DNA of 64,000 bases from Microbacterium sp. LWH7-1.2 (GTDB lineage Bacteria; Actinomycetota; Actinomycetes; Actinomycetales; Microbacteriaceae). The stretch spans positions 1,240,001 to 1,304,000 of the forward strand of contig NZ_CP151637.1 in assembly GCF_038397755.1 (NCBI RefSeq). Reading direction: 5' to 3'. The notes beneath the pieces are model-generated. The model saw only the letters and a program-made list of their open reading frames with translations, was not told the origin of the DNA and ran no database searches. Of this stretch, positions 21,844 to 64,000 are shown piece after piece. The translations under genes were made by a program, and so were the position numbers. Positions within the stretch are counted from its first letter, which is position 1. Each line of letters opens with the position of its first letter.

Positions 21844-21887
21844 ACGACGAAGTCCCGGAAGCCGATCGGCTTCCGGGACTTCGTCGT
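21844..21887. terminator. Perfect 44-base palindrome, bidirectional terminator
   Basis: Both arms of 22 bases are exact reverse complements, with outer ends ACGACGAAGTCCCGG and its complement. It lies 29 bases after the panD stop and 4 bases from the 3' end of the tRNA-Pro fragment on the other strand, so it can terminate transcription from both sides. In the ancestral chromosome it was probably the terminator of an intact tRNA-Pro gene. Confidence 0.8.
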
Positions 21888-21891
21888 TCTC

Positions 21892-21926
21892 GTCGGGATG
21901 ACAGGATTTGAACCTGCGACCCCCTG
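21892..21926 (-). other. 3' end of tRNA-Pro without its 5' half: probable att site
   Basis: On the minus strand the block reads as the variable loop, T arm (GCAGGTTCAAATCCTG) and 3' acceptor strand (TCATCCCGA) of an actinobacterial tRNA-Pro. After the CAGGGGGTC end the sequence stops matching a tRNA, so the anticodon and D arms and the 5' acceptor strand are missing. A 35-base tRNA 3' fragment next to the old terminator is what remains at one end when an element integrates into a tRNA gene. The intact tRNA would then be at the other end, outside this window. tRNA identity is from memory of the family pattern. Confidence 0.75.
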
Positions 21927-22697
21927 GAGAGTTCAGGCGATTTCCGAGCTCCACCGGTTGTCATGAGAACCCTCGCGTTCCCTTGTCTTGACAGGGAACC
22001 GGGCGGTTCGAGTTCTCCGATTGTATCCGGTCGGCTCGGGTCGCCCCTGAGTGATTGGGGTGGCGAAGTGATGGCGCACTCCCCCGGCGACTCGTCGGCC
22101 GGCTGAGTGGCCCACATGCACACCTTCCTTATGGAAGGGAGCTGAAAATGAACCGCAGCATCGCCACCTAAACTGCCTCCTTACCTGAGGCGTCGATAGC
22201 ACCGTCCGCCGAGCACCGTTGGATGAGCGTCGTATTCCTGCAAGGCGAGGGGGCCGACGCCGTTCTCCAGATGATCGACCGAGACAGATGCGAGGCTGTG
22301 ATCCGCCACCTGTCCTAATGGGATGTCGGCGACGAGACGAGGGATGCCGCGCTGGGTAACGGAAATGTGTACGACGAGATGATCCCGCAGAGTCCGACCG
22401 ATGAGGTCGTCCCACGTGCGGCGTCGGGCTACGCGCTCGCGAACAACGGGCGCTTCGGGTACGTGTCTCTGCTGCGCACCTTCGCGCCAGTCACCGAGCA
22501 GCCACCTATCCCAGCGACCCCGTCGCCCGCTCGGCTGGAACACGTGCGGATCGCGCCAGTTCGGCACGTCACGTCCAGGCGCGCTACTGGGCACTACCTC
22601 TGACGGGCTCCAGCTCGTTGGCGGGCGAGGCAATCGTGATCGACATGCCCTCCGGATCCCTCTACGCGCCGTCGCTCCCACCGGATCGCCACGAGGG
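21927..22697. other. Gene-poor junction region after the tRNA fragment
   Basis: I see no convincing gene here. Short open frames exist on both strands, but none has a ribosome binding site, normal codon pattern and recognisable product together. Close to the att block there are nested inverted repeats: GTTCCCT at 21977-21983 pairs with AGGGAAC at 21993-21999, and GAGAAC at 21965-21970 pairs with GTTCTC at 22012-22017. These could be integrase arm sites or a terminator. The rest looks like decayed coding DNA. Confidence 0.5.
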
Positions 22698-23297
22698 CTA
22701 GTCGACAGCAAAGAACCTTTCGCAGTACGAGTCGAACACACCGATGATGTCCAGCGTCCGGTCACGCACCCACACGGCTTCGAGTCCATCCCAGAAGGCG
22801 GTGAATTCGGCGGCGGCGATGGCTGGGTCACGTTTCCAGGTGAGCCGCCGCTCCAGTTCGGATCGGGCACCCCGCTCCCGATTGCTGTAGAGCTCGTGCG
22901 CCGGGTGGGTGGGAGACAGGGCCTCCACCGACAGCATCACATGGAGACGGACCAGTTCGGGTTTGCTGATGTTCCTCTCGAACACGGCGGTGTATAGCGC
23001 GCGCACGTCGACCGACGTGCCGGAGTTGTACCGTTTCGCGGCCTCTTGGAAGTAGGTGTACTGGTCCTCGTCGTGGGCGTTGATCACCGCGATGAGCAGG
23101 TCGTCCATCGATGCGAAGTAATGCAGGACGGATGGTCGTCGGATGTCGCATGCCTCGGCCACCGCTGCCAAGGTCACCGCTGTATACCCTGAGTCGCTGA
23201 TCAGGCGGGTTGCGACTTCAAGAATCTGGGCGCGACGTCTTTCGGGACTGAGGCGCACACGCCGGCGCGATGGTGCAAGGGGGGCTGTACCGGTCAT
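22698..23297 (-). CDS. TetR family regulator of the sugar module
   Basis: A 199-residue TetR-type repressor. The DNA-binding domain covers about residues 18-65 (RRAQILEVATRLISDSGYTAVTLAAVAEACDIRRPSVLHYF), followed by an all-helical ligand domain. It is divergent from the MFS transporter. Two similar operator-like repeats lie in the shared upstream region, so it most likely represses the transporter/glucosidase operon and itself, and is released by a plant-type glycoside or its product. The ligand is an inference. Confidence 0.88.
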   Translation of the reverse strand: MTGTAPLAPSRRRVRLSPERRRAQILEVATRLISDSGYTAVTLAAVAEACDIRRPSVLHYFASMDDLLIAVINAHDEDQYTYFQEAAKRYNSGTSVDVRALYTAVFERNISKPELVRLHVMLSVEALSPTHPAHELYSNRERGARSELERRLTWKRDPAIAAAEFTAFWDGLEAVWVRDRTLDIIGVFDSYCERFFAVD

Positions 23298-23328
23298 AGC
23301 CGAGAGCCTACTGGCGTGTCTTGCAATT

Positions 23329-23367
23329 ATCTACACCGTGGTAGATACTATCTTCACCTTGGTAGAT
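23329..23367. promoter_or_regulatory. Tandem TetR operators
   Basis: Two 18-base elements, ATCTACACCGTGGTAGAT at 23329-23346 and ATCTTCACCTTGGTAGAT at 23350-23367, share ATCT-N-CACC-N-TGGTAGAT. Each has ATCTAC/GTAGAT-type arms. They are 21 bases apart, two helical turns, in the only AT-rich part of the TetR/MFS divergent region. Binding by two dimers on one face of the helix is likely. Confidence 0.75.
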
Positions 23368-23399
23368 AAGCCGGGTCCGGAGCAGCGACGCTGACCGGA

Positions 23400-24710
23400 A
23401 TGCCTCGAGTTTGGATGATGATGTCCTCTGAAATCCCTGATCCCTTCGCTCACCCCGACGTTCTCGCAGAACCGACCGGGACGATCGGCGCCCGCCCGGG
23501 TCGCCGAGGAACGGCGCGGCTCGGAACCGCATTCTTCATCGGCGGCCTCGGATGGGTCTTCGCCAATACGGTTCTGACCGGCGTGATCACCGCCGCAAAG
23601 CTGGCCATCCTCGCACCGGAGGACAAGGTGGTGCTACTGGGGCTGATCACCGCACTGACCGCGATCGTTTCGACCGTGATCCTCTTCTTCTGGGGGGCGA
23701 TCTCCGACCTCACCCGGAGTCGGTTTGGGCGCCGCACCCCCTGGATCATCATCGGCGCGATCGGCGGTCTCCTGGGCCTGGTGTTCGTCGCGTTGGCCGA
23801 CACGGTGCCCCTGTTCATCGTCGCGCTAGTGATCTACTCGATCATGTTCAACGCCCTTCCCCCCGCGATGCTGGCGGTCTTCCCGGACAGGGTGCCCCGC
23901 ACGAAGCGAGGGACGATGTCAGCTGTCTACGGCGGAGCACAGCTCGTAGCCGGTTCGGTTGCAGTCATCGTGGCTTCGGGCTTCATCACTGCTCCCGACA
24001 CCGTGCTGTACATCGCTGGCGGGGTGCTCCTGGTCTCGGCGGTCCTTTTCGTCCTGATCGCCCCTGATAGCGACAACAGGGACCAGCCGCGCGAGCGGAT
24101 GAACATGCGCGGGCTGCTGCACGCCTTCCGCTTCCCGGCCAAGGCGCCGGACTTCTACTGGGCCTTCGCCGGTCGATTCCTGCTCCTGCTCGGATTCTTC
24201 ATGGTGACGAACTTCACGCTCTACATCCTCACGGACTTCATCGGGCTCTCCAATGAGGAAGCTGGCGGGATCCTCGCCCTGTCCGGACTCGCGCTGCTGG
24301 TGTCTACGGCCATCGGCACGTTCGTAGCCGGGCCGTTGTCGGATCGGATCGGCCGCCGCAAGATGCCGATCTTCGTGGCTGTGATGCTATTCGTGGTGGC
24401 CCTCGCACTACCGCTGATCTTCCAGACCGGATGGTCGATGATCGCCTTCACGGCGGTCGCAGGGCTGGGCTTGGGGGCCTTCCTCTCCGTCGACACCGCC
24501 CTCATGACAGAGGTCCTGCCGTCGGACGAGGAGGCCGGCAAGGATCTCGGCATCCTCAACACCGCCAACACGGTGCCGGCCATCGTGGCGCCGATCGTCA
24601 CGTCGACTATCGTCGCGTCGGGATTGGGATACCCGCCGGTATTCATCGTTTCCATCGTGATCGTCCTCATCGGCGGGTTCAGCATCTTCAAGATCAAGTC
24701 GGTCCGCTGA
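23400..24710 (+). CDS. MFS sugar/glycoside transporter
   Basis: A 436-residue inner membrane protein with 12 predicted helices. The motif DLTRSRFGRRTPWIIIGA after helix 2-3 and DRIGRRKMP in the second half are MFS A-type signatures. The first one resembles the GPH (glycoside-pentoside-hexuronide) and SLC45-like sugar carriers. It sits directly before a cytoplasmic beta-glucosidase, so it probably imports an intact beta-glucoside by proton symport. Start choices are 23400 or the ATG triplet at 23415-23423, since no site has a strong ribosome binding sequence. Confidence 0.85.
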   Translation: MPRVWMMMSSEIPDPFAHPDVLAEPTGTIGARPGRRGTARLGTAFFIGGLGWVFANTVLTGVITAAKLAILAPEDKVVLLGLITALTAIVSTVILFFWGAISDLTRSRFGRRTPWIIIGAIGGLLGLVFVALADTVPLFIVALVIYSIMFNALPPAMLAVFPDRVPRTKRGTMSAVYGGAQLVAGSVAVIVASGFITAPDTVLYIAGGVLLVSAVLFVLIAPDSDNRDQPRERMNMRGLLHAFRFPAKAPDFYWAFAGRFLLLLGFFMVTNFTLYILTDFIGLSNEEAGGILALSGLALLVSTAIGTFVAGPLSDRIGRRKMPIFVAVMLFVVALALPLIFQTGWSMIAFTAVAGLGLGAFLSVDTALMTEVLPSDEEAGKDLGILNTANTVPAIVAPIVTSTIVASGLGYPPVFIVSIVIVLIGGFSIFKIKSVR

Positions 24711-24738
24711 GCTGGCCCCGAGATCCACGGCACCCACC

Positions 24739-27015
24739 ATGATCGATATCAATCACTTGTCCGTACCGGAACGTGCGGCCCTAACCAGCGGCGGCACGTT
24801 CTGGGAGACCAAGACGGTTCACGGGTATCCGCCCATTGCCTTCTCCGATGGTCCCCACGGTGTTCGGCGACAGCTGGAGAACGCTGACCACCTCGGAATC
24901 GCGGAGAGCGTGCCAGCCACCTGCTTCCCGCCCGCGGCCGCGCTCGCTCAAACGTGGGATCCCTCACTCGTCCGCCGGGTTGGCGCGGCGCTGGGGGTTG
25001 AGGCCAGGAGCCTCTCCGTCGACGTGCTCCTGGGCCCCGGCATCAACATCAAACGCGACCCCCGGGGTGGCAGGAACTTCGAGTATTTCAGTGAGGACCC
25101 GTTCCTCACCGGGGCCCTCGGAGAATGGTGGGTCCGAGGTCTGCAGAGTGAAGGAGTCGGCGCTGCCCTGAAACATTTCGCGGCCTACAGCTCCGAGACG
25201 GACAGGATGCGGGCCAGCTCTGATGTTGACGAGCGGACCCTGCGGGAGATCTACCTCCGCGGCTTCGAACGGATCGTGAAGAAGGCGAAGCCGTGGACGG
25301 TGATGTGCTCCTATAACCGGCTCAACGGTGTGTACACCGCTGAAAACCGTTGGCTGCTCACCGATGTCCTCCGGGGCGAGTGGGATTTCGACGGGGTCGT
25401 CATCAGCGATTGGGGAGGGGTGAGGGACCGCGTCGCCTCCCTCGATGCTGGGCTTGACATCGAGATGCCCGCGAATGGAGGACTTAGCGACGCCTTAGTG
25501 GTGTCCGCCATCGAAGAGGGCCTCATCGGAGCTGATCGGCTCGAAACCGCGGCCCGCCGGGTGGCTGCCCTAGTCGAGAAAGCCGAGGCTGTTGCCGGCG
25601 CGCCCGTCGGGTTCTCGGTCACGGACCATCACACCCTGGCACGGGAAGTCGCGGGACGCTCCATCGTCCTGCTGAAGAACGATGACCGTGTGCTTCCTCT
25701 GCGTAGCGGTGGAAGCATCGCAGTGATCGGCGAATTCGCGAAGAGCCCTCGCATTCAGGGCGGCGGCAGCTCGCGTGTAAACCCGACGATCGTGGACACG
25801 CCGTTCGATGAGATACGCGACCGGAACGGCGGGAGTGCGGTGACCTTCACCGCCGGCTTCGCCACGAACGGATCTGAAGACGCCGACGAGCTGCGCGCCG
25901 ACGCCCTCCGCGCCGCCACAGGTGCAGAAACGGTGGTGCTCTTCCTCGGGCCGGGCGACGCGCAGTCCTCCGAAGGCTTCGACCGCGACAACATCGAACT
26001 CCCCGACGACCAGCTGCACCTCCTGCGCACAATCGCGGCAGTCCACCACCGTGTCGTGGTTGTCCTCACCAGCGGCGGAGTACTCGGCCTGACCGACGTC
26101 ACCGCCCACGCGGCGGGCATCCTCTCAACAAGCCTGCTCGGCCAGGGGGGAGGTCGCGGGATCGCAGACGTCCTTTTCGGCATCGTCAACCCTTCGGCCC
26201 GCCTCACCGAGACCGTCCCGAAACGACTCGAGGACGTTCCCGCCTTCTTGACAGCTTTCGCTGAGAACCAGCACACCGTGTACGGGGAACGTCACTTCGT
26301 CGGCTACCGCTGGTACGACGCACGCCAGATGGACGTCGAATACCCGTTCGGCCATGGCATGTCTTATACGTCGTTCGCCTACGGTGATCTCACGGTGACC
26401 CTCGTCGAGGACCGGCTCTCGGCTTCTTTCGACATCACCAACACCGGCGATAGAGACGGTCGGGAGGTCCCGCAGCTGTACTTCGGCGTATTCGAGTCGG
26501 TGATCTCGCGCGCACCCCGCGCGTTGGTCGGCTTCGACAGTGTTGTTCTCGAGCGTGGTGAGACGCGCCGGATCACGATCGATGTCCCTCTGACTGAGCT
26601 TGCCTACTGGGATAGCCGCATGAGCCGGTGGGTTATCGAAACTGGACGGTACAACTTGTTCGTGGGAGCCTCGAGCCGCGACGTCCGCTCCACGACAACC
26701 GTGATGATCTCAGGTGACGACGCGCCACCGCCACTTACCCTGAGCTCGACGCTCGGTGAGGTCCTGGAGCATCCGGGTGCACAGAATCTCGCCCGCACCC
26801 TCCTTGGCGGCTCTGCCGATGCGATGGCGGACGGTACAAACGAACTCGGCATCGACATGGCCCGGATGATGGCCTCGATCCCCATCGCACGGTGGGTGAC
26901 CCTCTCCGCAGGCGCACTGACGCGAGAAGCCCTCACCCAAGCTCTCGATGCAATCAACACTTCGGGCGCCCCATGGCCAGTCCGTTTCGGGCCCGCCCCC
27001 AGCGCACAGGACTAG
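24739..27015 (+). CDS. GH3 beta-glucosidase, cytoplasmic
   Basis: A 758-residue glycoside hydrolase family 3 enzyme that releases glucose or a related sugar from beta-glycosides. The nucleophile is Asp224 in VVISDWGG, and KHF (145-147) is the substrate-binding motif after GPGINIKRDPRGGRNFEYF. The second domain follows from about 300, and a fibronectin-III-like domain from about 560-650. There is no signal peptide, so it acts on imported substrate, in agreement with the MFS gene 28 bases upstream. Codon usage is less GC-rich than in the siderophore and catabolic regions, which suggests separate acquisition. Confidence 0.92.
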   Translation: MIDINHLSVPERAALTSGGTFWETKTVHGYPPIAFSDGPHGVRRQLENADHLGIAESVPATCFPPAAALAQTWDPSLVRRVGAALGVEARSLSVDVLLGPGINIKRDPRGGRNFEYFSEDPFLTGALGEWWVRGLQSEGVGAALKHFAAYSSETDRMRASSDVDERTLREIYLRGFERIVKKAKPWTVMCSYNRLNGVYTAENRWLLTDVLRGEWDFDGVVISDWGGVRDRVASLDAGLDIEMPANGGLSDALVVSAIEEGLIGADRLETAARRVAALVEKAEAVAGAPVGFSVTDHHTLAREVAGRSIVLLKNDDRVLPLRSGGSIAVIGEFAKSPRIQGGGSSRVNPTIVDTPFDEIRDRNGGSAVTFTAGFATNGSEDADELRADALRAATGAETVVLFLGPGDAQSSEGFDRDNIELPDDQLHLLRTIAAVHHRVVVVLTSGGVLGLTDVTAHAAGILSTSLLGQGGGRGIADVLFGIVNPSARLTETVPKRLEDVPAFLTAFAENQHTVYGERHFVGYRWYDARQMDVEYPFGHGMSYTSFAYGDLTVTLVEDRLSASFDITNTGDRDGREVPQLYFGVFESVISRAPRALVGFDSVVLERGETRRITIDVPLTELAYWDSRMSRWVIETGRYNLFVGASSRDVRSTTTVMISGDDAPPPLTLSSTLGEVLEHPGAQNLARTLLGGSADAMADGTNELGIDMARMMASIPIARWVTLSAGALTREALTQALDAINTSGAPWPVRFGPAPSAQD

Positions 27016-27394: not shown

Positions 27395-27997
27395 TCACAG
27401 GCGCGAGTGCTCTCCGAGGTGATGCCAAGCACGATTGTGATAGACGAGGGGTCGCGTCGTCTCTGCGTTCGCCTCCGCACTTCCAGCGGCTGGTGCACTC
27501 GTCTGGAGCGCGTGCACGACCATGAGCGTCGAACTGCCTGCCTCCAACTGAGCGATGACCGCGCCGCGGATCCAGGCGTGCGCACCGTGGTACACCGGCT
27601 CGCCGGTGACCAGTCGATTCCAGGAGTCCTCGTCGGCGAACCGGTCCACACCGCTCGTCGCGCACAACTTGGCGATACCGATCTGGTCGGCGCCGAGAAG
27701 ATGGACGACGACTGTCTCGGCGCGTTTGATCGTCGGCGCGCTCGATGAGAGCTCCGAAATCGAGAAGACGAGCAGTGGAGGCTCGGCACTGACCGAGAAG
27801 ACCGACGTCGCAGTCAACCCGACGGGACCGTCGCCCGCATCTGCGGTGACCACCGCTACACCGGCGGGATGGTTGCGGAATGCCCGCTTGAACTCGTCCG
27901 CGCTGACTGTGTTCGGGAGTGTGCGATGCGGCGTCACACTCTCCGGGTTGGTCGCACCGGTCGGATGCGTCTGGTCAGACTCGGCCACCGCGGTCAT
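27395..27997 (-). CDS. Flavin reductase component of a two-component monooxygenase
   Basis: A 200-residue protein of the flavin reductase-like domain family (HpaC/HsaB type). It supplies reduced FMN or FAD to the oxygenase encoded just upstream. The segments FRNHPAGVAVVTAD, GLTATSVFSVSAEPPLLVFSI and the C-terminal LVYHNRAWHHL are characteristic. It starts by ATGA overlap with the oxygenase gene, so the two are made together. Confidence 0.9.
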   Translation of the reverse strand: MTAVAESDQTHPTGATNPESVTPHRTLPNTVSADEFKRAFRNHPAGVAVVTADAGDGPVGLTATSVFSVSAEPPLLVFSISELSSSAPTIKRAETVVVHLLGADQIGIAKLCATSGVDRFADEDSWNRLVTGEPVYHGAHAWIRGAVIAQLEAGSSTLMVVHALQTSAPAAGSAEANAETTRPLVYHNRAWHHLGEHSRL

Positions 27998-29193
27998 GCG
28001 TTCTCTCCCCGCCACTCGGCGAGGATCGGTCCTGCGGCAGGGATGAGCGTCGATTGGTCGACGAGGAGGTGCGTTTTCGCGGTGGCGATGTCGCGGGTGG
28101 CGCGGCCCAACGCGCTCGGGTTGCGGAACGCCTTGCTCCCGCCCCACAGCTGGGTGAACGACGTCAGCTGGTCGGCGACGTTGTGAACCCACGTCGACAC
28201 CTGTCGGACCCGGGCATCGTGATAGTCGGAGAGCCCGCCCTCCAGCGTTGCGGCATCCTCGGCTTCCTGGAAGACCCGGTATGCGAACGCCCTGGCAGCC
28301 TGATACTCCGCTTCGCGGACGGCGAAGTCGTGCGCGAACAGAGGGTGCTCCCCGATCGTGCCGGCGTATCCGAGCCGCGCCTTGTTCTTCGCAACGTCGG
28401 CGATCTCCTCGAGCGCCCGGCCCATGATGCCGAGCGTTACCGCCGCGTGGCCTGCAACGCTCATGCTGATAAGGCTCAGCGAGAAGACACCCTCGGACCG
28501 GTTCGGCTTCGCCGAGGATGCGGTGGAGAATGCGCGCCGCTCCGGGAGGAACTGCTCCGGCACCTCGTAGTCGATGCTTCCGGTGCCGACCATTCCCATG
28601 ACGTCCCAGCCGCCGAGGTACTCCACGTTCTCACGCGGGAAGTAGGCGAACAGGGTGTTCGGCTCGCCGTTGGGCAGCAGCTCCGGCTTCCCTTCGTCAT
28701 CCACCACCATGAGACCCGCAGCGACATACGTCAGGAACGCGGATCCGCTGAGGAACTGCAGCTTCGCCTTCGCTCGGTAGCCCCCCTCTACCCGCACGGC
28801 CTTGCCGAACGGCGCAGAGAATCCGGCGGAGACGGCCTTGTCGTCCCCGCCGTAGAGTTCCTGCGCACCGTCGGTCGGAAGGTATCCCGCGCCGAGGCCG
28901 ATTCCGAGCGTCGGCGCCATCAGTGCCCACCCCGTGGATCCGTCGGCTCGAGAGATCTCCTCAAGCACCGCGACAGTCTCGGTCAGACCTAGGCCGCCGC
29001 CGCCGAGATCGGCGGGGAGGAGCATCCAGTAGAGCCCCTTCTCGCGGAGGGCATCCGCGACCGCGGGGGTGATCGTCGCGGTGCGCTCCATCTCGTCGGC
29101 TTCGCCTCGGATCAGGGGTGCGAGTTCTTTCGCGCGGTCGAGGTAGTCCGCGCCCGCGGACTTCGTGACATCCAACACCGTCTCCAACGACAT
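27994..29193 (-). CDS. Flavin-dependent monooxygenase, oxygenase component (acyl-CoA dehydrogenase fold, HsaA-like)
   Basis: A 399-residue protein with the acyl-CoA dehydrogenase fold. It is most like group D flavin monooxygenases (HsaA, DszC, hydroxyphenylacetate type), which use free reduced flavin and O2. ADLGGGGLGLTETVAVLEEISRADGSTGWALM is typical of that group and not of true acyl-CoA dehydrogenases. The coupled flavin reductase gene confirms the two-component reading. I prefer the ATG at 29191-29193 over the GTG three codons earlier because AAAGGTGG is better spaced. The substrate is unknown. Confidence 0.85.
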   Translation of the reverse strand: MSLETVLDVTKSAGADYLDRAKELAPLIRGEADEMERTATITPAVADALREKGLYWMLLPADLGGGGLGLTETVAVLEEISRADGSTGWALMAPTLGIGLGAGYLPTDGAQELYGGDDKAVSAGFSAPFGKAVRVEGGYRAKAKLQFLSGSAFLTYVAAGLMVVDDEGKPELLPNGEPNTLFAYFPRENVEYLGGWDVMGMVGTGSIDYEVPEQFLPERRAFSTASSAKPNRSEGVFSLSLISMSVAGHAAVTLGIMGRALEEIADVAKNKARLGYAGTIGEHPLFAHDFAVREAEYQAARAFAYRVFQEAEDAATLEGGLSDYHDARVRQVSTWVHNVADQLTSFTQLWGGSKAFRNPSALGRATRDIATAKTHLLVDQSTLIPAAGPILAEWRGENA

Positions 29194-29235
29194 CTCTTCC
29201 ACCTTTCCCGGAACCCGGTCCGGTATCGAGGTCGC

Positions 29236-29337
29236 ACGTCGCGTTCGGCTTCGCCGCAGAACGCGACGTCGCGTTCTTGGTCAACTCATAGTAAGAAGGG
29301 AGTTGAAAAAACGAATAGACAGTTCGGTTATTCGAAC
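29236..29337. promoter_or_regulatory. Divergent promoter region with an 18-base perfect palindrome and other inverted repeats
   Basis: GAACGCGACGTCGCGTTC at 29259-29276 is an exact palindrome. Its right half ACGTCGCGTTC (29266-29276) recurs at 29236-29246, 30 bases away. Further on, TCAACTC (29281-29287) pairs with GAGTTGA (29300-29306), and GTTCG/CGAAC lie at 29322-29337. This is a likely operator array controlling the monooxygenase and the EthD-like gene. The regulator is not identified. Confidence 0.65.
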
Positions 29338-29367
29338 AATGTCCGCCCCGCGGAAGGATGGGAACTC

Positions 29368-30111
29368 ATGTCGGTCTCCCCGTCGTACGTCGCCCTGCCT
29401 ACCACCGGCCCCCTCTCGTCTGCCCTCGGCCATGCCTTGATCACCATGGCCGAGACGACGACCGAGGCGTCCGACCGGTACACGCAGTTCTACGAAGGCG
29501 ACCATTTCGTCCCCGTCGCGATGAGCAGTCCGTGGTTCTTCGCCGGAAGGCGGTGGGAGGGATCTCCGGGCTACACCGCCCAGCAGGGACTGGCAGCCAC
29601 GGCCTCGGCCGGCCGGTGGTTCCTGGGCGTGTACCTGATCGTCGAGGGCCGGCTCGACGACGCCAAGTCCTGGATCATGAGTGCGACGAACCGGGCGAAC
29701 GATGAGGGGCGGTCCTTCGCGGACCGGACACCGCTCATGACCGGGTTCGCCGACTTCGTGGGCTCTCGCCGCAAGCCCGATTTCCCCACGGACGAGTATG
29801 CGCTGATGGACCCCACGAAGGCGCTGTCGGTCGAGGTGGTCATCGACCGTGACGGCCAGGGGGCAGGATGGCTTCTCGATCGCGCGGAGTCGGTGGTCCG
29901 CGACGTGGAGAGCGTGTCCGCGGTCCACATCTTCGGCGACCAGACCCCCGACGGCGAGGCGCGCTTCACGCTGCTGTGGTTCCTCGACTCCGACGCCGAG
30001 GCGCACGCGCCCTCGACGGCGGAGGTGGAGCGCATGGAAGCGGCCGGCTACCCCGTGCAGGTGCTGGCGGCGCTCACGCCCCGCCGCATGGGTGTCGCCG
30101 CGGCCGGGTAG
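29368..30111 (+). CDS. EthD/DUF-type alpha-beta barrel-like protein, 247 aa
   Basis: No firm family is recognised. The segment EASDRYTQFYEGDHFVPVAMSSPWFFAGRRWEG resembles the EthD pattern, in which an acidic start leads to a DxxHxP-like region and then GRRY/GRRW. A second half from about residue 140 (SVEVVIDRDGQGAGWLLDRAESVVRDVESV) could be a second ferredoxin-like domain. Proteins of this type accompany ether- and polyketide-related oxidations, but their role is unclear. It is divergent from the two-component monooxygenase and shares its operator region, so it probably serves the same substrate. Confidence 0.6.
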   Translation: MSVSPSYVALPTTGPLSSALGHALITMAETTTEASDRYTQFYEGDHFVPVAMSSPWFFAGRRWEGSPGYTAQQGLAATASAGRWFLGVYLIVEGRLDDAKSWIMSATNRANDEGRSFADRTPLMTGFADFVGSRRKPDFPTDEYALMDPTKALSVEVVIDRDGQGAGWLLDRAESVVRDVESVSAVHIFGDQTPDGEARFTLLWFLDSDAEAHAPSTAEVERMEAAGYPVQVLAALTPRRMGVAAAG

Positions 30112-30115
30112 TCCT

Positions 30116-30137
30116 GCGCCGGCCGTGGGCCGGGCGC
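30116..30137. terminator. GC-rich hairpin between convergent genes
   Basis: GCGCCGGCC and GGCC-G-GGCGC form a stem with a three-base loop and one bulged base. It fills the 39-base gap between two converging genes, so a shared terminator is likely. Confidence 0.55.
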
Positions 30138-30150
30138 CTGCACGCGGTGA

Positions 30151-30936
30151 TCAGAGCGCGAGGTAGCCTCCGTCCACGGGCAGCGCCACGCCATGGATGT
30201 TGGACGCCGCGTCGGAGGCGAGGAAGAGCACCACCGCTGCCGCTTCCGACGGATCCGCCACCCGGCGCGTGGGATACACGCGATCGACATGCTCCTGCCA
30301 CTCGTCAGGCGTGAAGCGGCTGATGAACTCGTTAAGGATCTCCGTCCGGTGGGCGCCGGGGCAGATCGCGTTCACGCGCACGCCGTGTCGCGCGTAGTCG
30401 ACCGCTGCGGCCTTCGTGAGGCCGATGACCGCCGCCATCGCGGCGCAGTACTCGGCATTGCCCGCCATGCCCACGACACCGGCGATCGAGGACATATTGA
30501 TGATCGCGCCGCCCCCCGACTCGACCATCGCCGGGATCGCGTACTTCATACCGAGGAAAACGCCCTTAGCGTGGATGCCGATGGTCCGGTCGAAGGATTC
30601 CTCATCGACCGCAGCCAGCGGGCGGCCCTGACCGCTGTTGCCGGCGTTGTTGAACAGCACGTCCACCCCGCCCCATTCCCGCGTCGCGCGGTCGACCATG
30701 CTGCGCACCGAACCGGCGCTGAGCACGTCCACCTGCTGACCCTCGATGCTCCCGGGGAGGCCAGCGGCCAGCTCGCGGGTGCGCTCCAGCGGCTGACTGC
30801 GCCGCCCGCCGACGAGCACTCGGGCGCCGCGCGCGGCGAAGGCGAGAGCCGTCGCCTGTCCGACACCAGTCCCTCCGCCCGTGATGAGCACCCGTTTGCC
30901 CTGGAACGCACCCGTGGAGAAGACATCATCGGCCAT
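30151..30936 (-). CDS. SDR family oxidoreductase lacking the catalytic lysine
   Basis: A 261-residue classical short-chain dehydrogenase/reductase. The cofactor motif is GGGTGVG (20-26), NNAG lies at 96-99, and the catalytic serine at about 149-150. The tyrosine Tyr163 is present, but the YxxxK lysine is Met167 (YCAAM). The C-terminal PVDGGYLAL is normal. Loss of the lysine normally abolishes or strongly reduces dehydrogenase activity, so it may be a binding protein, use another mechanism, or be decaying. A GAGGA site precedes the ATG. Confidence 0.85.
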   Translation of the reverse strand: MADDVFSTGAFQGKRVLITGGGTGVGQATALAFAARGARVLVGGRRSQPLERTRELAAGLPGSIEGQQVDVLSAGSVRSMVDRATREWGGVDVLFNNAGNSGQGRPLAAVDEESFDRTIGIHAKGVFLGMKYAIPAMVESGGGAIINMSSIAGVVGMAGNAEYCAAMAAVIGLTKAAAVDYARHGVRVNAICPGAHRTEILNEFISRFTPDEWQEHVDRVYPTRRVADPSEAAAVVLFLASDAASNIHGVALPVDGGYLAL

Positions 30937-31003
30937 AGGCAGATCCTCGCGGGCCGGCGCCGCCGCGTGCGCAAGCCGCTCATCGGGCGGGACGCGACGG
31001 TCG

Positions 31004-31459
31004 CTACCCTCGCGAGTAGGTCGCCACCAGGCGCGCCTGCTCGATCACGTGCGATGCGTACTGGGCGAGAAACTCGGCACGGGACGGCTCCCCACTGACC
31101 GATCGGTCGAGCGCATAGAGCCAGAAGTAGTAGTGATGCTTCCCATGCCCGACGGGAGGACGAGGGCCGAACCATTCGCGTTTTCCGGCGTCGTTCTGGC
31201 CGGTCCGAAACGGCAGGTCGTCCCCGAGGAGTCCGGCACGGGCGGGTATCCCATAGCAGGTCCAGTGCGAGTAGCCGAACGGCAGCGGGGCGTCAGGGTC
31301 ATGCATGATGAGCGCGAGCTCGACGGCGCCACTCGGGACACCTCGGATACTCAGCCGCGGCACCGCGTTGTCGAAATAGGCGGTGAAGCGGTCGGGGAAT
31401 CGACCGCCCCCGGGCAGATCAAGGCTGGTCAATTCAAGATCCCGGATGTTGAGCGCCAC
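31004..31459 (-). CDS. PEBP family protein (YbhB/YbcL type)
   Basis: A phosphatidylethanolamine-binding-protein-like protein of about 151 residues. The DPDAPLPFGYSHWTCYGIP segment near 55-75 and the later GKHHYYFWLYALD are the family's ligand-site motifs. Bacterial members have no settled role. An AGGAGAGGA sits six bases before a GTG at 31459, so I take that as start over the ATG at 31477. Either way it overlaps the 3' end of the oxidase gene on the same strand by at least 26 bases, so the two are co-transcribed. Confidence 0.8.
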   Translation of the reverse strand: MALNIRDLELTSLDLPGGGRFPDRFTAYFDNAVPRLSIRGVPSGAVELALIMHDPDAPLPFGYSHWTCYGIPARAGLLGDDLPFRTGQNDAGKREWFGPRPPVGHGKHHYYFWLYALDRSVSGEPSRAEFLAQYASHVIEQARLVATYSRG

Positions 31460-34400
31460 GACTCGTCCTCTCCTCATGCCGTCGCCGCCCTCGGCGCCGG
31501 ACCGATTTCGTCTCGTTCAAATAGCCCGGCGGGTCGAGGATCTCCGCGAGATGCCAGCCGCGTCGAGCCGGCTCGAGCTGCTGAACCTGCATGGAGCAGC
31601 TGAAGCCGTCGGTGAGGACGGGCGTCTCGGGTCCGGTCCGGTTCAGAGCAGGGATGAGCGCCTGCGCCGCCACTGCCATCGACACGTCGTAGTGGGCGGC
31701 CTCGAAGCCGAAGTTTCCCGCGACGCCGCAGCATCCTGTCGCCTCACGGACGATCGTGACACCCACGGCCTCGAGGGCGGCCCGCTGCACGCCTGCGCCG
31801 AACACCGCGTACTCGTGGCAGTGGGTCTGCACCGTGACCTCGGACGCGACGTGCGCGGGCCTCCAACCCTGCGTCGTCCAGTCGGTCACGGCCTCGGCGA
31901 AGCTCCGGATACGAGCTGCCACGCGCTGCGCCGCCGCGGTGCCGACCAGCTCGGGCCCGTCCTTACGCAGGGCCGCTGCGCAGCTGGGTTCGATCACGAC
32001 GATCGGACGGTCGGTTCCGTCGTCCAGCCTGTCGATCGCGGTCCGCAGCAGCCGCTGGGCTGTGCTGAGCTGACCCGTCGAGATGTACGTGAGCCCGCAG
32101 CAGGCGTCTGCCTCGCACGACACCGTGTGCCCGGCATCCGACACGACCCGCGCCGCCGCTCCCGCCACCTCGGGGCGGAATCCCCTGGTAAAAGAGTCGA
32201 CGAAGAGGACGACATCCCCGTCCGTTCGCTTCGTGCCGTGCACCCCGAGCGCCTGTCGCAGACTGCGCCGTGAGGCGAAGGAGGGCAGGCGCCGGAGTGG
32301 GCTCAGTCCCCCGGCACGGAGGAGGACTCGACGTAGCGGAGTCCTCAGCACGGCGTTGACCACCGGGCTGATGTGCACAGTGAACCGCAGCCACAGCGGC
32401 AGCCATCCGAGAGAGTAGTGCGACATGGGGCGGATCCTGCCGGCGTAGTAGTGCGAGAAGAACTCGGACTTGTACGTCGACATGTCGACGCCGGCCGGAC
32501 AGTCGGTGGAGCACGCCTTGCACGAGAGGCAGAGGTCGAGCGCTCCTCGCACCTCCTCTGACCGCCACCCGGACTCGGCGCCCCGCGCCCCCCGGACCAT
32601 GTCCTGGAGCACTCGCGAACGGCCTCGGGTCGAGTCGGTCTCTTCATGCGTGGCCCGGAAGCTCGGGCACATCACACCGCCGGTGTCCGAGCGGCACCGG
32701 CCCACGCCGATGCAGGACTGCACCGCATGGACCCACGGGTCAATGTCGTCCGGCGCACCGGCAGCCGGCTTCAGGTCGAAGTGCGTGCGCCACGCACGAT
32801 CCGGAACGTCCGCGAGAGCCAGGTCGGCGTCGAACGGGGCGGGGTCGACGATCGAGCCGGGATTGAGCAGGCCGAGACCATCCCACAGCGCGCGGAACCG
32901 CCGGAACGAGTTCATCATCGAGGCGGAGTACATCACAGGGAGCAGCTCCGACCGCGCACGGCCGTCGCCGTGCTCACCCGAGAGCGAGCCGCCATGCCGC
33001 ACCACTAGGCGCGCGGCATCGTGAGTGAAAGCCCGGAACACCTCCCGCCCGGACTCGGTCCGCAGGTCGTACGAGATCCGGATGTGCATGCAACCGGCAC
33101 CGAAGTGGCCGTACATGATGCCCGTGAGACCGTGCGCCTCCAGGAGTCCACGGAAGTCGGCCAGATAGTCAGCCAGGTTCTCAGGCGCGACAGCGGAGTC
33201 CTCCCATCCGGCCATGGTCTCCCCGCCGCGCGCCGGTCTTGACGAGAGACCGGCGCCATCCTCGCGCACGCGCCACAGCGCTGCCCGGTCGGAAGGATCG
33301 CTCACCAGGAGCCCCTCCCGCATCCGTCCCATCGTCTGCAGCCGGCTCAGGAGCCGCTCCGCCTCCGCGACGACCGACGCTCTGTCCTTCCCGTCCAGAT
33401 CCACGTAAAGGAACGCCTTGCCCGCGGGCATCCCAACGACACTCTGCGGCCCTCGGCGCATGCGCATCGTCTCAACGATGTCCTCGTCGATCCCCTCGAC
33501 CGCGGCGGGCCGGAACGTCAGGATCTCCGGGATGTCGCGCGCGGCGTCGACGACGTCGGCGTAGCCGAGGCAGACGAGTAGCGCGCTCGCCGGTCTGGGC
33601 ACCAGTTTCATGCGCGCCCGCACGACGACGGCGCATGTGCCCTCGGAGCCGACCAGCGCCCTTGCTGCGTCGAAGCCGTTCTCCGGCAGCAGGTGCGCGA
33701 GGTGGTAGCCGGAAACCTGTCGCGGGATGCGGCCGAGCTCCAGTCGAAATTCCGCGAGGTTGCCGAGGGCCAGGTCTCGCAGGCCGTTCTCCAACTCCTC
33801 TGCGCGGCGGAGCGAGTACTCGTCGTCAGCGCGAGTCGCGCGGATTCCGCCGGCGGACGCAGTCAGCGCGGCCCCGTCGGACGTGACCACGTCGAGTTCG
33901 ATCACGTGGTCGGTCGTTCGCCCGTACCGGACCGAGTGGTTCCCGCAGGCGTCGTTGCCGATCGCGCCCCCGACTGTCGCACGGTTGCGCGACGACGGAT
34001 CGGGGGCGAACGTCGCCGCCCCGCCGCTCGCATCCTCGACTGCACGGGTCAGGTCGGACAGCACCACCCCGGGGTCGACGTCCGCGAGCATGGCGTCCGT
34101 GTCGATGCGGTGGATGCGCGTCATATACCGGGACACATCCATGACGACTCCCGCGCCGACCGCGTTCCCCGCCATCGACGTCCCGCCGCCCCGCGTCACC
34201 AGGCTGGTTCCTGTGGAGCGACATGCGGCGATGACCCCACGCACCTGCTCGGGGTCCCGGGGGTACACGACGACAAGCGGGGGGACTCGGTAGTTGGACG
34301 CGTCATACGAGTACGCCGCGAGCGTCGCGCCCGAGCGGTCGACGATGACGCCGGTCGCCTCCAGCAGATCCAGCAGCGCCGTGCGCTCTCGCGTCAGACT

Positions 34401-34460
34401 CACCTGTTCTCCGATCTCAGCCGGCGCGCTCGATCCCCGTTGCCCCGAGATGGTCCGCAC
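31434..34460 (-). CDS. FAD/Fe-S D-2-hydroxyacid dehydrogenase (YdiJ-like fusion)
   Basis: A 1008-residue fusion of the size of E. coli YdiJ, a D-2-hydroxyglutarate dehydrogenase. The N-terminal FAD_binding_4 domain (VTRGGGTSMAGNAVG near 90) is followed by the substrate/FAD-linked C domain (GEHGDGRARSELLP near 495). A [4Fe-4S] module (CLSCKACSTDCP near 665) and two CCG-type cysteine segments (HCHEYAVFG, GCCGVAGNFG) complete it. The start is GTG three bases after the upstream stop; an in-frame GTG at codon 20 with GGAGAA is an alternative. In this cluster it may oxidise a D-2-hydroxyacid made during side-chain degradation. Confidence 0.88.
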   Translation of the reverse strand: MRTISGQRGSSAPAEIGEQVSLTRERTALLDLLEATGVIVDRSGATLAAYSYDASNYRVPPLVVVYPRDPEQVRGVIAACRSTGTSLVTRGGGTSMAGNAVGAGVVMDVSRYMTRIHRIDTDAMLADVDPGVVLSDLTRAVEDASGGAATFAPDPSSRNRATVGGAIGNDACGNHSVRYGRTTDHVIELDVVTSDGAALTASAGGIRATRADDEYSLRRAEELENGLRDLALGNLAEFRLELGRIPRQVSGYHLAHLLPENGFDAARALVGSEGTCAVVVRARMKLVPRPASALLVCLGYADVVDAARDIPEILTFRPAAVEGIDEDIVETMRMRRGPQSVVGMPAGKAFLYVDLDGKDRASVVAEAERLLSRLQTMGRMREGLLVSDPSDRAALWRVREDGAGLSSRPARGGETMAGWEDSAVAPENLADYLADFRGLLEAHGLTGIMYGHFGAGCMHIRISYDLRTESGREVFRAFTHDAARLVVRHGGSLSGEHGDGRARSELLPVMYSASMMNSFRRFRALWDGLGLLNPGSIVDPAPFDADLALADVPDRAWRTHFDLKPAAGAPDDIDPWVHAVQSCIGVGRCRSDTGGVMCPSFRATHEETDSTRGRSRVLQDMVRGARGAESGWRSEEVRGALDLCLSCKACSTDCPAGVDMSTYKSEFFSHYYAGRIRPMSHYSLGWLPLWLRFTVHISPVVNAVLRTPLRRVLLRAGGLSPLRRLPSFASRRSLRQALGVHGTKRTDGDVVLFVDSFTRGFRPEVAGAAARVVSDAGHTVSCEADACCGLTYISTGQLSTAQRLLRTAIDRLDDGTDRPIVVIEPSCAAALRKDGPELVGTAAAQRVAARIRSFAEAVTDWTTQGWRPAHVASEVTVQTHCHEYAVFGAGVQRAALEAVGVTIVREATGCCGVAGNFGFEAAHYDVSMAVAAQALIPALNRTGPETPVLTDGFSCSMQVQQLEPARRGWHLAEILDPPGYLNETKSVRRRGRRRHEERTSRGAQHPGS

Positions 34461-34463
34461 GGG

Positions 34464-35411
34464 TCAGTGCGACCCGGCCCGTACTCGCGTCATATGCATC
34501 TCGGTCTGCGCGAGGGCAGCCACCAGCCGGGGGCCGACGAGGGTGCTCAGGCCCGCGGTCCACGGGATGCGCTGTGCGGTCCCCCACACCGAATCAGCGG
34601 GTCTGTCGCGCATCGCCCGGGCGACCGCTCGAGTGCGGGCCTCATGGTGCTCTGCGATTTGGGCGCTGCGCTCCGCCAGGCCCGTGAAGCGATACCCGTG
34701 CCCGGGGCTGACGACGAGGTGGTCGTAGCGAACCGTCTTCCGCAGTGAATCCAGATAGCAGTCGAGAGGATTCTCACCGTCGCCCACCCAGTGCCCGATG
34801 CCGGGATTCACGATCGGCAGCACATGATCTCCCGAGAAGAAGAGACCCGAGCCCTCCTCGACGAGGCACACGTGCCCCGCCGTGTGGCCGGGCGTGTCGA
34901 CGACCACGACCTCCCGACCGGGTATGGGCAGGACATCGCCCTCCTCGACCCGCACGTCCACGTGGATATCGGCTGCGCGCATACTCGATTGCGAGACACG
35001 AGCGCGAAGCTCGCCGCGCGACTTGTCGGGCACTCCCCACCTGGCAAGCGCGCCCTCGTCGGGGAATGCGACGTTCTCCTTCAACTGGCGCGCCTCTCGG
35101 GCACCCATGACGGTGGCGGCTCCATGATCGCGGAGGCGGTGCGCCATCCCCAGATGATCGAGGTGCAGGTGCGTGACGATGCAGGACCGCACTGATCCTC
35201 GGTCGCGACCGATGTCGGTCAGGAAATCCGTGAGGATGCGGACGTTATCCTCCGAGTCTGCACCGGGGTCGATAAGGTGGATGCCCCGCTCGGCGTCTTC
35301 GAGGACATAGCAAAGCGTGAAGCGCACGGACCCGTTCGGGAAGTCGATCGGAAGGGGAAGGCACCAGGTGCGCTCATCGATCCGCTCCGGCATGGGAAGC
35401 TCTCCGCGCAT
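34464..35411 (-). CDS. Metallo-beta-lactamase fold hydrolase
   Basis: An MBL-fold protein with the metal motif THLHLDHLG and further ligands in DTPGHTAGHV and SPGHG. The family hydrolyses thioesters, lactones and many other bonds. Here a lactonase or acyl-CoA thioesterase role is plausible but not shown. The frame opens at 35459. I prefer 35411 (MRGELPMPERID) with GAGG upstream, and 35393 (MPERID) after GGAG is equally possible. It lies between the LLM oxidoreductase and the YdiJ-like gene in one operon with gaps of a few bases. Confidence 0.82.
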   Translation of the reverse strand: MRGELPMPERIDERTWCLPLPIDFPNGSVRFTLCYVLEDAERGIHLIDPGADSEDNVRILTDFLTDIGRDRGSVRSCIVTHLHLDHLGMAHRLRDHGAATVMGAREARQLKENVAFPDEGALARWGVPDKSRGELRARVSQSSMRAADIHVDVRVEEGDVLPIPGREVVVVDTPGHTAGHVCLVEEGSGLFFSGDHVLPIVNPGIGHWVGDGENPLDCYLDSLRKTVRYDHLVVSPGHGYRFTGLAERSAQIAEHHEARTRAVARAMRDRPADSVWGTAQRIPWTAGLSTLVGPRLVAALAQTEMHMTRVRAGSH

Positions 35412-35465
35412 CGCGGCCTCTTCGCGGCTGCGGGTCACGGCGGAGTGGGACGCGCGCATACGGCC

Positions 35466-39132: not shown

Positions 39133-39137
39133 GAGTA

Positions 39138-39998: not shown

Positions 39999-40081
39999 CG
40001 TGTCCTCATCGTTGTTGGAAGCGGGCGGGTGCCGCAGCGTTGCTGCTGTATCGCTACGGCACCCGATGTTGCGTGTCCCGT

Positions 40082-50716: not shown

Positions 50717-50718
50717 CA

Positions 50719-58395: not shown

Positions 58396-58449
58396 GGGGG
58401 CCCGTTGGGGAGCGACTCGTAGCCTGGCCGATGGATACAGAGGGGTGAC

Positions 58450-61495: not shown

Positions 61496-62247
61496 CCGAG
61501 CGCCTCGCGGAGAAGGTGGTCGTCGTCACGGGAGCCGCCCAGGGGATGGGCCAGACGCACGCACGCCGTCTCGTCGCCGAAGGAGCGCTGGTCGTGCTCG
61601 CGGACATCGACGAGGAGGGCACCGCGGTGCTTGCCCGCGAACTCGGCGAGGCAGCCCTGCCGGTGAGGCTGGACGTGACCCGGGAGGCCGACTGGTCGGA
61701 CGCGCTCGATCGTGCGGTCGAGCGGTTCGGGCGCGTCGACGCGCTCATTAACAACGCGGGGCTCCTTGCCCGGGGTGACGTGGACTCGACCCCGCGCGAG
61801 ACCTGGGAGCGGGTGATGAACGTGAACGCCACCGGCGTGTACCTCGGCACGGCAGCTGTCATGCCGCTCCTGAAGGCGCAGTCCTCCGGGTCGATCGTCA
61901 ACATCTCCTCGGTCGACGGGCTGCGCGGCACCGACCACCTCTTCGCCTATACGGCGAGCAAGTGGGCGGTGACGGGAATGACCAAGGCGGCGGCCATGGA
62001 ATGCGCGCCGTGGGGAATCCGCGTCAACTCGGTGCATCCGGGGCTGATCCTGACCCCGATGTCCGAGTCCCTGGGCCCGACGCGCCTCGCGATCCCGATG
62101 GGGCGAGGGGCCCGGCCCGAAGAGGTCTCGGCGATGGTGGCGTTCCTCGCCTCGGACGAGTCCGCGTACTGCACGGGGGCGGAGTTCGTGATCGACGGCG
62201 GCCTGACCGCCGGCATCCCGCACCGCGACCCCAGCGCCGTCGCCTGA
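61492..62247 (+). CDS. SDR family oxidoreductase
   Basis: A 251-residue short-chain dehydrogenase with TGAAQGMG (13-20), NNAG, catalytic serine in NISSVDG and YTASK. It is closest within the window to the SDR at 43973, sharing the VRVNSVHPG-type C-terminal part. It starts GTG with GTGA overlap. Probable role: alcohol/ketone step early in the pathway. Confidence 0.9.
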   Translation: MTERLAEKVVVVTGAAQGMGQTHARRLVAEGALVVLADIDEEGTAVLARELGEAALPVRLDVTREADWSDALDRAVERFGRVDALINNAGLLARGDVDSTPRETWERVMNVNATGVYLGTAAVMPLLKAQSSGSIVNISSVDGLRGTDHLFAYTASKWAVTGMTKAAAMECAPWGIRVNSVHPGLILTPMSESLGPTRLAIPMGRGARPEEVSAMVAFLASDESAYCTGAEFVIDGGLTAGIPHRDPSAVA

Positions 62248-62253
62248 AGAGCC

Positions 62254-63492
62254 ATGGACTCCCACCGACCTCGCCCGCATCTCAGCCGGAGCGCGGCGTT
62301 CTGGACCTCGAGCGGGATCATCGTCACCATCCTCGCCGCCTCGAGCGCGCCATCCCCTCTCTATCCCTTCTACGAGGAGACGATCGGGCTCACTCACATC
62401 GACATCTCGTTCGCCTTCAGCGGCTACCCGATCGGGCTGCTGCTCGCTCTTCTCATCGCCGGATCAATCTCGGATCACCTCGGCCGCAAGCCGGTGATCA
62501 TCGTCTCGCTGGCGGGACTCATCTGCTCGATGGTCCTCCTGCTCGTCGCCACGGCGACGCCGGTCCTGATAGCGGGTCGCCTGCTGCAGGGACTGTCGAC
62601 CGGGGTCGCCCTGGGCGCGGTCGGCGCGTATCTCGTCGAGCTCGCACCCGTCGGGCGTCCCCACCTGGCCAGTCTGGTCAACAGCGCGGGGGCGGTGATC
62701 GGCACCGCGGTCGGCGCCATTCTCGGGAGCGTGGCGGCGCTGGTCTGGCCCTCGACGCCGATGGTTGTCTTCGGCCTCCTCCTCGTGATCTTCGCCGGCG
62801 AATTGGTCAGCATCTCGTTGTCGCCGGAGTCCTGGCGCCGCGTGCCGGGGCTGGCCGCCTCGCTCGTTCCCCGTATCCACATCCCCCGGCGGGTTCGTCG
62901 CGAAGCGCCCTGGACGATGCTTGGCCTCTTCCTCGCGTGGGCGGCATCCAGCGTGACCCTCTCTCTGGCGCCCGTGCTGCTCAGCGACCTCGTGGGCGGT
63001 TCCGGGGCGATCCTCGGCGCAGTCGTTGTCCTGACGATGTGCCTGCCGGGGGCGGTCGCGGCCTTCGTGCTCGCGAAGCAGTCTGCGGCCACCATCATGA
63101 TCGTGACCGTGATCAGCCTCATCCCGGGCGCAGGACTCACGATCCTCGGCACGTCGCTGAGCTCCCTGACCGCCTATCTCGCGGGCACCGCGATCGCAGG
63201 CATCGGCGTCGGTGCGTCCCTGCTGGGCGCCCTCCGGATGCTGACGACAGCAGCCGACCCCGAACACCGGGCGGGCGCGATCAGCGCGGTGTACGTCGCG
63301 GCGTACGTCGGACTCGCGCTCCCCACCATCCTCGTCGGCGCACTGGCGTCCACGCTGGGCCTCGCAAACGCCTTTCTGGCGTTCGAGGCGGCTGTCGTGG
63401 CATTCGCGGTGGTCAGCCTGATCGGACTCGTCCTCACCACCCGGCCAGGTCCGCCGGGACCCGCCAGTGCGCAGTTCAAGGAGGCAACATGA
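62254..63492 (+). CDS. MFS transporter
   Basis: A 412-residue 12-helix membrane protein. GSISDHLGRKPVIIVS is the MFS loop 2-3 motif. The family resembles drug/proton antiporter-like and acid symporters, so import of the substrate or export of a toxic intermediate are both possible. It lies 6 bases after the SDR and overlaps the aldehyde dehydrogenase by ATGA. Confidence 0.87.
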   Translation: MDSHRPRPHLSRSAAFWTSSGIIVTILAASSAPSPLYPFYEETIGLTHIDISFAFSGYPIGLLLALLIAGSISDHLGRKPVIIVSLAGLICSMVLLLVATATPVLIAGRLLQGLSTGVALGAVGAYLVELAPVGRPHLASLVNSAGAVIGTAVGAILGSVAALVWPSTPMVVFGLLLVIFAGELVSISLSPESWRRVPGLAASLVPRIHIPRRVRREAPWTMLGLFLAWAASSVTLSLAPVLLSDLVGGSGAILGAVVVLTMCLPGAVAAFVLAKQSAATIMIVTVISLIPGAGLTILGTSLSSLTAYLAGTAIAGIGVGASLLGALRMLTTAADPEHRAGAISAVYVAAYVGLALPTILVGALASTLGLANAFLAFEAAVVAFAVVSLIGLVLTTRPGPPGPASAQFKEAT

Positions 63493-64000
63493 CCATCGCT
63501 ACCTCGCTCGACGAGCGTTCCGTCATCGCGGACGTCCCCGACGGCCTCTTCATCGGAGGACGCTGGGTCCAGACTGAAGCGCGCATCGCCGTGCGCGACC
63601 CGTCGTCGGGCAAGACGCTGGCCGCCATAGCCGACGCCGGCGCCCGCGAGGGCGTCGCGGCCCTCGACGCCGCCTCCGGCGCTCAGCGCGGGTGGGCGAG
63701 GTCGAGCGCCCGCGACAGAGCGCGGGTGCTGACCCGGGCGTACGAACTGGTGCAGCAGCGCCGTGACGAGTTCGCCCTCCTCATGACCCTGGAGATGGGA
63801 AAGCCGCTCCCGCAGTCGTACGCGGAGGTGGACTACGCCAGCGAGTTTCTCCGCTGGTACGCCGAGGAGGCGGTCCGCATCGGCGGGTGGTACGGCAGCA
63901 ATCCCGAGAACACTGGGCGGATGATCCTGTCGCATCACCCAGTCGGTCCGGCCCTTCTCATCACCCCGTGGAACTTCCCGCTGGCGATGGCTACGCGCAA
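63489..64000 (+). CDS. Aldehyde dehydrogenase, partial (N-terminal 170 aa)
   Basis: The gene continues past the right edge. DGLFIGGRWVQTEARIAVRDPSSGKTLAAIADAG opens the domain, and LLMTLEMGKPLPQSYAEVDYASEFLRWYAEEAVRI and the cofactor segment LITPWNFPLAMATRK are typical of succinate-semialdehyde dehydrogenase-like members. It would oxidise an aldehyde formed in the pathway to the acid. The catalytic cysteine and glutamate lie outside the window. Confidence 0.9.
   Translation, partial: MTIATSLDERSVIADVPDGLFIGGRWVQTEARIAVRDPSSGKTLAAIADAGAREGVAALDAASGAQRGWARSSARDRARVLTRAYELVQQRRDEFALLMTLEMGKPLPQSYAEVDYASEFLRWYAEEAVRIGGWYGSNPENTGRMILSHHPVGPALLITPWNFPLAMATR

Follow-up and report, generated by a model that had tools for sequence, protein, structure and literature searches.

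Type IV secretion system (T4SS)-type integrative and conjugative elements (ICEs) are known from actinobacteria; Ghinet et al. (2011) counted 17 putative ones in 275 actinobacterial genomes, in a paper whose main text does not contain the word Microbacterium (PMC3218068), and Guglielmini et al. (2011) reported few T4SS in actinobacteria, as well as many T4SS without a nearby relaxase (PMC3158045). In a Leucobacter strain, TrwC, VirB4, and VirD4 genes have been found on one contig (PMC6868719); another paper gave nothing on such elements (PMC9903846). Here we describe an island of 83 kb at a tRNA-Pro(GGG) gene of Microbacterium sp. LWH7-1.2 that begins in a 64-kb stretch of its genome (the window, G000:C1:1240001-1304000; the genome is a single contig of 4,446,169 bp). 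We read this tRNA-Pro element, with a probability of about 0.9, as a decayed T4SS-type ICE of Microbacteriaceae sitting in the 3' half of the tRNA gene—one in which cargo replaces the relaxase and the front of the transfer operon, and which is probably excisable and not self-transmissible. Of the papers listed in literature searches that did not extend to subscription papers, none has a title concerning a tRNA-Pro element of Microbacterium. Positions above 64000 are window coordinates continued rightward, and adding 1,240,000 gives the contig position; the features are collected in Table 1.

The ends of the island are marked by a direct repeat. An earlier note made from this DNA had claimed a 35-base tRNA-Pro 3' end adjoining a 44-base palindrome, an island of at least 42 kb, and, beyond 64 kb, an intact tRNA-Pro in the same orientation and probably an integrase; all of these were found. 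The 35-bp block at the left end is identical to 104860-104894, in the same orientation and with a spacing of 82,968 bp between the copies, so that 42 kb of the island lie inside the window and its end lies 41 kb past the window edge. The right copy completes an intact tRNA-Pro(GGG) on the minus strand (104859-104934, L005:859-934), identified with ARAGORN, which called no tRNA within the window and none in 64001-104000. When the two flanks are joined in silico by a script, one intact tRNA-Pro results. A block unique in the genome had been named as the case that would speak against an island; a second exact copy exists, and a 33-base form of the block occurs at two places only in the 4.45-Mb genome at up to three mismatches. 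By a rough estimate, the chance expectation for a 35-bp repeat is ~4e-9 in the 124 kb examined.

At the right end, the integrase is full length and free of stops, with 86-89% identity to its counterparts in five of the six sister elements that we inspected further (G148, G325, G087, G149, G029, and G051) and 77% to that of G029. Because the integrase, the excisionase-like gene beside it, and both attachment (att) sites are intact, the element is probably still excisable. The integrase would have recombined the 35-bp tRNA 3' half of the host with a matching copy on a circular element, leaving the 3' half and the host terminator at the left end and restoring a whole tRNA-Pro on the right, next to the terminator-like hairpin of the element. 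In this lineage, about 62 kb of catabolic and sugar-use genes now stand where the sisters have the relaxase and the first half of the transfer operon; the resulting element would probably excise and be incapable of transferring itself.

A hairpin adjoins each end of the element. The left palindrome (the fold of 21846-21891 has -37.6 kcal/mol) is probably the old host terminator of the interrupted tRNA-Pro, and hairpins were seen by eye at the equivalent place beside tRNA-Pro in many of 30 loci from relatives. A microRNA model on the palindrome, the sole Rfam match of the window, was rejected as chance, being far below cut-off. The second hairpin, left of the intact tRNA-Pro (-24.6 kcal/mol), is near-identical in five of the six sisters and variant in G029; since it stands at the rebuilt tRNA and is so alike in the sisters, the element appears to supply its own terminator, a function we infer, and to leave that of the host behind at the left end.

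The left end shows the same family likeness. In all six sisters the block is followed by sequence that can be aligned with window 21893-22073, in G051 on a separate contig. A 38-bp match right of the block had been considered as native DNA common to the host and G062, the closest sampled relative; this was dropped, and the stretch is the element end. Beyond it lies the relic of the first element gene. Compared with an open reading frame of 144 aa that is intact at this place in G325, it is 61% identical over 115 aa; G148 has an intact, 84% identical copy of that frame. The "degraded junction" claimed here earlier needs correction: only the reading frame has decayed, and the stretch of 21927-22073 before it is a conserved element end.

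The loss of transfer genes can be read against the sisters. G325 has a module of 20 genes, most of which form a set common to G325, G087, and G051; its members in the sisters include a relaxase, ArdC-like, Prim-Pol, DUF2637, ParB-like, and M23 peptidase proteins, and a TrbL/VirB6-like protein whose assignment is weak (E 0.0094). The sister relaxases are 1165-1168 aa long and of the TrwC kind (PF08751, E 5.8e-88, tested in G051). When the 20 G325 proteins were searched by tblastn, the tRNA-Pro element proved to have kept seven, cut one, and left twelve without a match, so that its mating-channel operon is incomplete. The cut gene is the VirB6-like one, with the last 82 of 456 aa left at 85223-85465; the kept genes include those for an SCO6880 family protein, a VirB4-like ATPase, a VirD4 coupling protein, and the single-stranded DNA-binding protein SSB. 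Judged by similarity, and below curated thresholds, the second of these would count as a VirB4-type ATPase. DNA homology to the sister modules spans 85177-92371. Our own simple gene caller gave 69 genes in the element, and Pfam, run on 68 of them (a 151-aa call at 31004-31459 was left out), matched neither a relaxase nor an FtsK/SpoIIIE-like Tra protein, the mark of FtsK/SpoIIIE-type AICEs; the G325 relaxase likewise had no tblastn match in the element. The module is retained in three of the six sisters: G148, G149, and G029 show no such genes, with a relaxase fragment in G148.

A complete version of the module lies elsewhere in the same genome, in a second island of 73.3 kb (G000:C1:502411-575776; loci L232, L227-L229). 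It is bounded on one side by a tRNA-Gln(CTG) gene (502411-502483) and on the other by a 36-bp repeat (575741-575776), located by script, that matches the 3' half of this gene exactly; a repeat search on one 20-kb stretch of the island gave none. All 20 G325 module proteins were matched in 523973-551987. In the whole genome, the G051 relaxase has a single homologue, an open frame of 1170 aa with 85% identity; it lies here, at C1:548065-551556, outside the tRNA-Pro element. The DNA shared by the two islands is limited to two blocks, and 523981-531175 of the contig is 95.6% identical over 7.2 kb to 85177-92371 of the tRNA-Pro element, while the sisters reach only 77-80%. Two integrase-like genes in the second island are 36% and 40% identical to the tRNA-Pro element integrase. 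From these comparisons, the two elements of the genome share a module and differ in their integrases. The second island also contains a tRNA-Arg(CCT) gene (G000:C1:544304-544376).

These observations raise the idea of a two-part system, in which a stripped, cargo-laden ICE, with genes for coupling and channel proteins left to it, would obtain the relaxase and the channel components that it lacks from a resident helper ICE at tRNA-Gln, the module would have been exchanged recently, and the trading of transfer genes for cargo would be recurrent in the family; we regard this as doubtful, with the odds well against it. In the TrwC-type class of relaxases, the transfer origin usually lies next to the relaxase. 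No oriT, which in an integrative mobilizable element (IME) could serve instead of a relaxase if a helper can use it, was located in the tRNA-Pro element. If the origin does lie next to the relaxase here, the element has lost it; this counts against simple trans help, and the remaining route would be help in cis once elements had accreted. Such help has been described for other elements (PMC5704250).

Relatives of the element integrase are found in the genus and beyond it. At E <= 1e-100, 33 of 366 genus genomes, own included, carry one, and the best 80 of 110 integrase loci kept from named genomes come from Microbacterium, Leucobacter, Sinomonas, Cryobacterium, and others. In 45 of these best 80 loci, tRNA-Pro lies within 700 bp of the integrase; five loci start at a contig end, two have tRNA-Thr, and one has an improbable tRNA-Ser call inside the integrase gene. 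A pair of blocks brackets the integrase in five of eight sister genomes searched, 10.7-77.0 kb apart (G148 47.7, G325 54.1, G087 77.0, G149 10.7, and G029 15.4 kb); of the remaining genomes, G291 has two blocks 572 kb apart and G349 has one. In G081, three blocks (one with one mismatch) stand in 13.5 kb beside an 86% identical integrase (G081:C23:22198-35658), likely a tandem array of elements at the same site, to judge from the repeats. Plasmid A of Microbacterium sp. No. 7 carries an integrase that is 73% identical (NZ_CP012698.1:36410-37585, L246); a helix-turn-helix gene is its neighbour, and annotations of transporters and metabolic enzymes adjoin it.

The stretch from the left relic to 85177 has 53 called genes: the sugar module, followed by oxidoreductases, coenzyme A-thioester enzymes, three FMO-like flavin monooxygenases (perhaps of Baeyer-Villiger type), transporters, and regulators. 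NCBIfam was run on seven cargo proteins, and only the thiolase-like one was above cut-off among the matches listed. G051 has a distantly similar sugar trio, its GH3 protein showing 51% identity. The catabolic genes are rare in the genus. With 43.8-63.5 kb as the query against 365 other genus genomes (best one or two candidates scored per genome), eight gave DNA matches, with no more than two stretches per genome, none longer than 1.7 kb, at 66-69% identity; the gene order is not conserved in relatives, which had been named as the other case against an island, and G062 differs too. For the HMG-CoA-lyase-like gene, two of the 365 genomes have a relative at E <= 1e-60 (52-53% identity). G095 and G041 share four genes around it at 41-55% identity—the lyase, CoA-transferase, and hydratase arranged alike, with the dehydrogenase on the other side—and Rhodococcus USK10 shares less. 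For a 655-aa cargo monooxygenase, a relative at E <= 1e-150 was found in three of 395 other genomes of the order (44-45% identity; best three candidates scored per genome). A search for the cargo on plasmids brought up nothing beyond short matches and homologues of low identity.

Base composition bears on how this cargo arrived. The mean GC content of 3-kb windows is 0.677 in the element versus 0.715 in the host, and 67 of 80 overlapping element windows are below the lowest host window. By segment, the sugar module, noted earlier as lower in GC, is indeed so against the host 0.715; 41.7-64 kb has 0.699 and 92.4-101.6 kb has 0.643, with the host at 0.713-0.715. This variation fits acquisition and also fits more than one source; a one-step arrival is therefore not demonstrated. 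The earlier view of the catabolic genes as one element stands insofar as they lie within one attL/attR pair, and arrival in one step or in several is compatible with it.

That uneven GC, 0.638-0.699 over larger segments, would also suit an 83 kb built up by accretion, with at least two elements inserting into tRNA-Pro in succession, and the three blocks within 13.5 kb on one contig of G081 indicate that tandem arrays exist at the site. We consider accretion improbable, since the element contains no third block (its closest forward and reverse 35-mer matches are 21 and 22 of 35 identical, compared with 20 in one shuffle), and the left-end relic, transfer remnant, and integrase module are ordered as in single sister elements. 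Least credible is the proposal of an old chromosomal origin for the catabolic genes, with the tRNA fragment as an unrelated leftover: the GC of 41.7-64.0 kb is near that of the host, but the cargo DNA of 43.8-63.5 kb has no long match among the candidates scored in relatives, the HMG-CoA-lyase-like gene is as rare as stated, and att copies bracket the catabolic genes.

The insertion site in relatives agrees in part with the decayed-ICE reading. The tRNA-Pro pattern is present in 63 of 99 sampled genus genomes, own included. The GNAT gene to its right was matched in 28 of the 30 kept loci (the exceptions are L011 and L023; in L020 the match is partial and farther off). Left of the tRNA hairpin the sequences vary, and panD was found in none of the 30 loci; the site is thus variable on the left side of tRNA-Pro and stable on the right. 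In four relatives, G028, G065, G062, and G148, the host gene to the left of panD (19858-21330) has kept the same orientation with respect to tRNA-Pro, at a distance of 5.7 kb in G028, 7.8 kb in G065, and 8.3 kb in G062; in G148 it stands 137 bp from the left block of an element. G062 has 89% DNA identity at panD and aligns up to window 21830 and again from 104860, with 8.3 kb between the aligned flanks that have no DNA similarity to the island. Within them, at L069:5937-5985, just after panD, lies a relic of the element left end without the attL core. Because 46 bp of G062 are 93% identical to the G087 element left end, G062 carries an element relic, and it seems from this likeness that it too had an element of the same family at the site.

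Several results weigh against our interpretation. No exact empty site, which the earlier note had proposed to look for in a related strain, was found: even G062 has 8.3 kb of other DNA and the relic between panD and tRNA-Pro. In 12 of 15 relatives (those with gene 19858-21330 and tRNA-Pro within 100 kb on one contig; inversions were counted by hand from the listed rows), the gene is inverted relative to tRNA-Pro and 14-97 kb away, which restricts comparison of the left flank to close relatives. No tRNA is near the integrase in 27 of the best 80 integrase loci, and no transposase that could explain the entry of the cargo was found in the 68 Pfam-scanned genes. The spacing between gene 19858-21330 and tRNA-Pro, considered as a hotspot measure, was dropped because of the inversions; these hint at an old rearrangement at the site.

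Table 1. Features of the tRNA-Pro element and its left flank (window coordinates, continued rightward beyond 64000; L004, locus coordinates).
Feature	Position	Strand	Basis and remarks
panD (aspartate 1-decarboxylase; name taken from the earlier note), last host gene left of the element	21428-21814	+	96% identical protein in G062
Palindrome, probable former terminator of the interrupted tRNA-Pro	21844-21887	-	Perfect, 44 nt, read by hand
attL core, displaced 3' half of tRNA-Pro(GGG)	21892-21926	-	Exact 35-bp repeat of G000:C1:1344860-1344894
Conserved element left end, probable arm of the attachment site	21927-22073		Related sequence in 6 of 6 sisters, weakest in G029
Relic of first element gene	22148-22492	+	Two in-frame stops, truncated, C-terminus missing
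Sugar module: TetR regulator, MFS transporter, GH3 glycosidase	22698-27015		Pfam; GC 0.638
Catabolic cargo I: flavin reductase and acyl-CoA-dehydrogenase-like protein, short-chain dehydrogenase/reductase (SDR), FAD/Fe-S oxidase, metallo-hydrolase, luciferase-like oxidoreductase, branched-chain-type ABC transporter, HpcH/HpaI aldolase	27395-42516		Pfam; NCBIfam below cut-offs
Catabolic cargo II: MarR, SDRs, acyl-CoA ligase, HMG-CoA-lyase-like protein, CoA-transferase, enoyl-CoA hydratases, acyl-CoA dehydrogenases, MaoC pair, thiolase and ChsH2-like OB protein, FMO-like flavin monooxygenase, SMP-30 lactonase, MFS	42586-64000, continuing to ~84182		Pfam
SCO6880 family protein	L004:1534-2925		SCO6880_fam above cut-off
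VirB4-like ATPase	L004:3532-4989		Four VirB4-type models, E 3e-17 to 1e-8, below cut-offs; no Pfam match
VirD4-type coupling protein	L004:5561-7333		PF12696 / PF02534
Second cargo stretch	92.8-101.1 kb		Pfam, PADLOC
Tyrosine integrase	103247-104434	-	PF00589, E 1.2e-19
Helix-turn-helix protein (HTH_17), excisionase size and place	104439-104678	-	Pfam; 180 bp to tRNA

The second cargo stretch includes a possible defence cargo (L004:11638-17108, extended 95638-101108), in which a DUF488 protein and its neighbour match the PADLOC candidate models PDC-M19A/PDC-M19B; a 1206-aa NACHT-like protein there is below the Pfam cut-off.

The element is of a known kind and otherwise a case of ordinary horizontal gene transfer. 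Its history is unusually readable, and it gains interest from the evident exchange of transfer genes for cargo. A tRNA-Pro element family of Microbacteriaceae, one member of which carries a large set of degradation genes, is now known with its exact ends, its integrase and target, and several sisters. Further interest comes from the complete related transfer module in the same genome as the crippled element: with all the missing transfer genes present in the second island, this strain is a clear test case for the rescue of broken ICEs by relatives in the same cell. ICEclc, like the tRNA-Pro element, carries a degradation pathway on a tRNA-integrated element; it differs in being proteobacterial, in using another transfer family, and in being self-transmissible. 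Decayed ICEs and cis-mobilizable elements (CIMEs), as presented by Guedon et al. (2017; PMC5704250), are alike in having kept att sites, in having lost or broken transfer genes, and in possible mobilisation by a related element; unlike a CIME in the strict sense (PMC5704250), the tRNA-Pro element has an intact integrase and excisionase-like gene. With the T4SS-type actinobacterial ICEs that have a MOBF (TrwC) relaxase, as treated in PMC3218068, it shares the tyrosine integrase at a tRNA 3' end, VirD4, and the VirB4-like ATPase. The sisters G325, G087, and G051 have the relaxase of those ICEs (PMC3218068) too, whereas the tRNA-Pro element, without the relaxase and the front half of the operon, has cargo instead.

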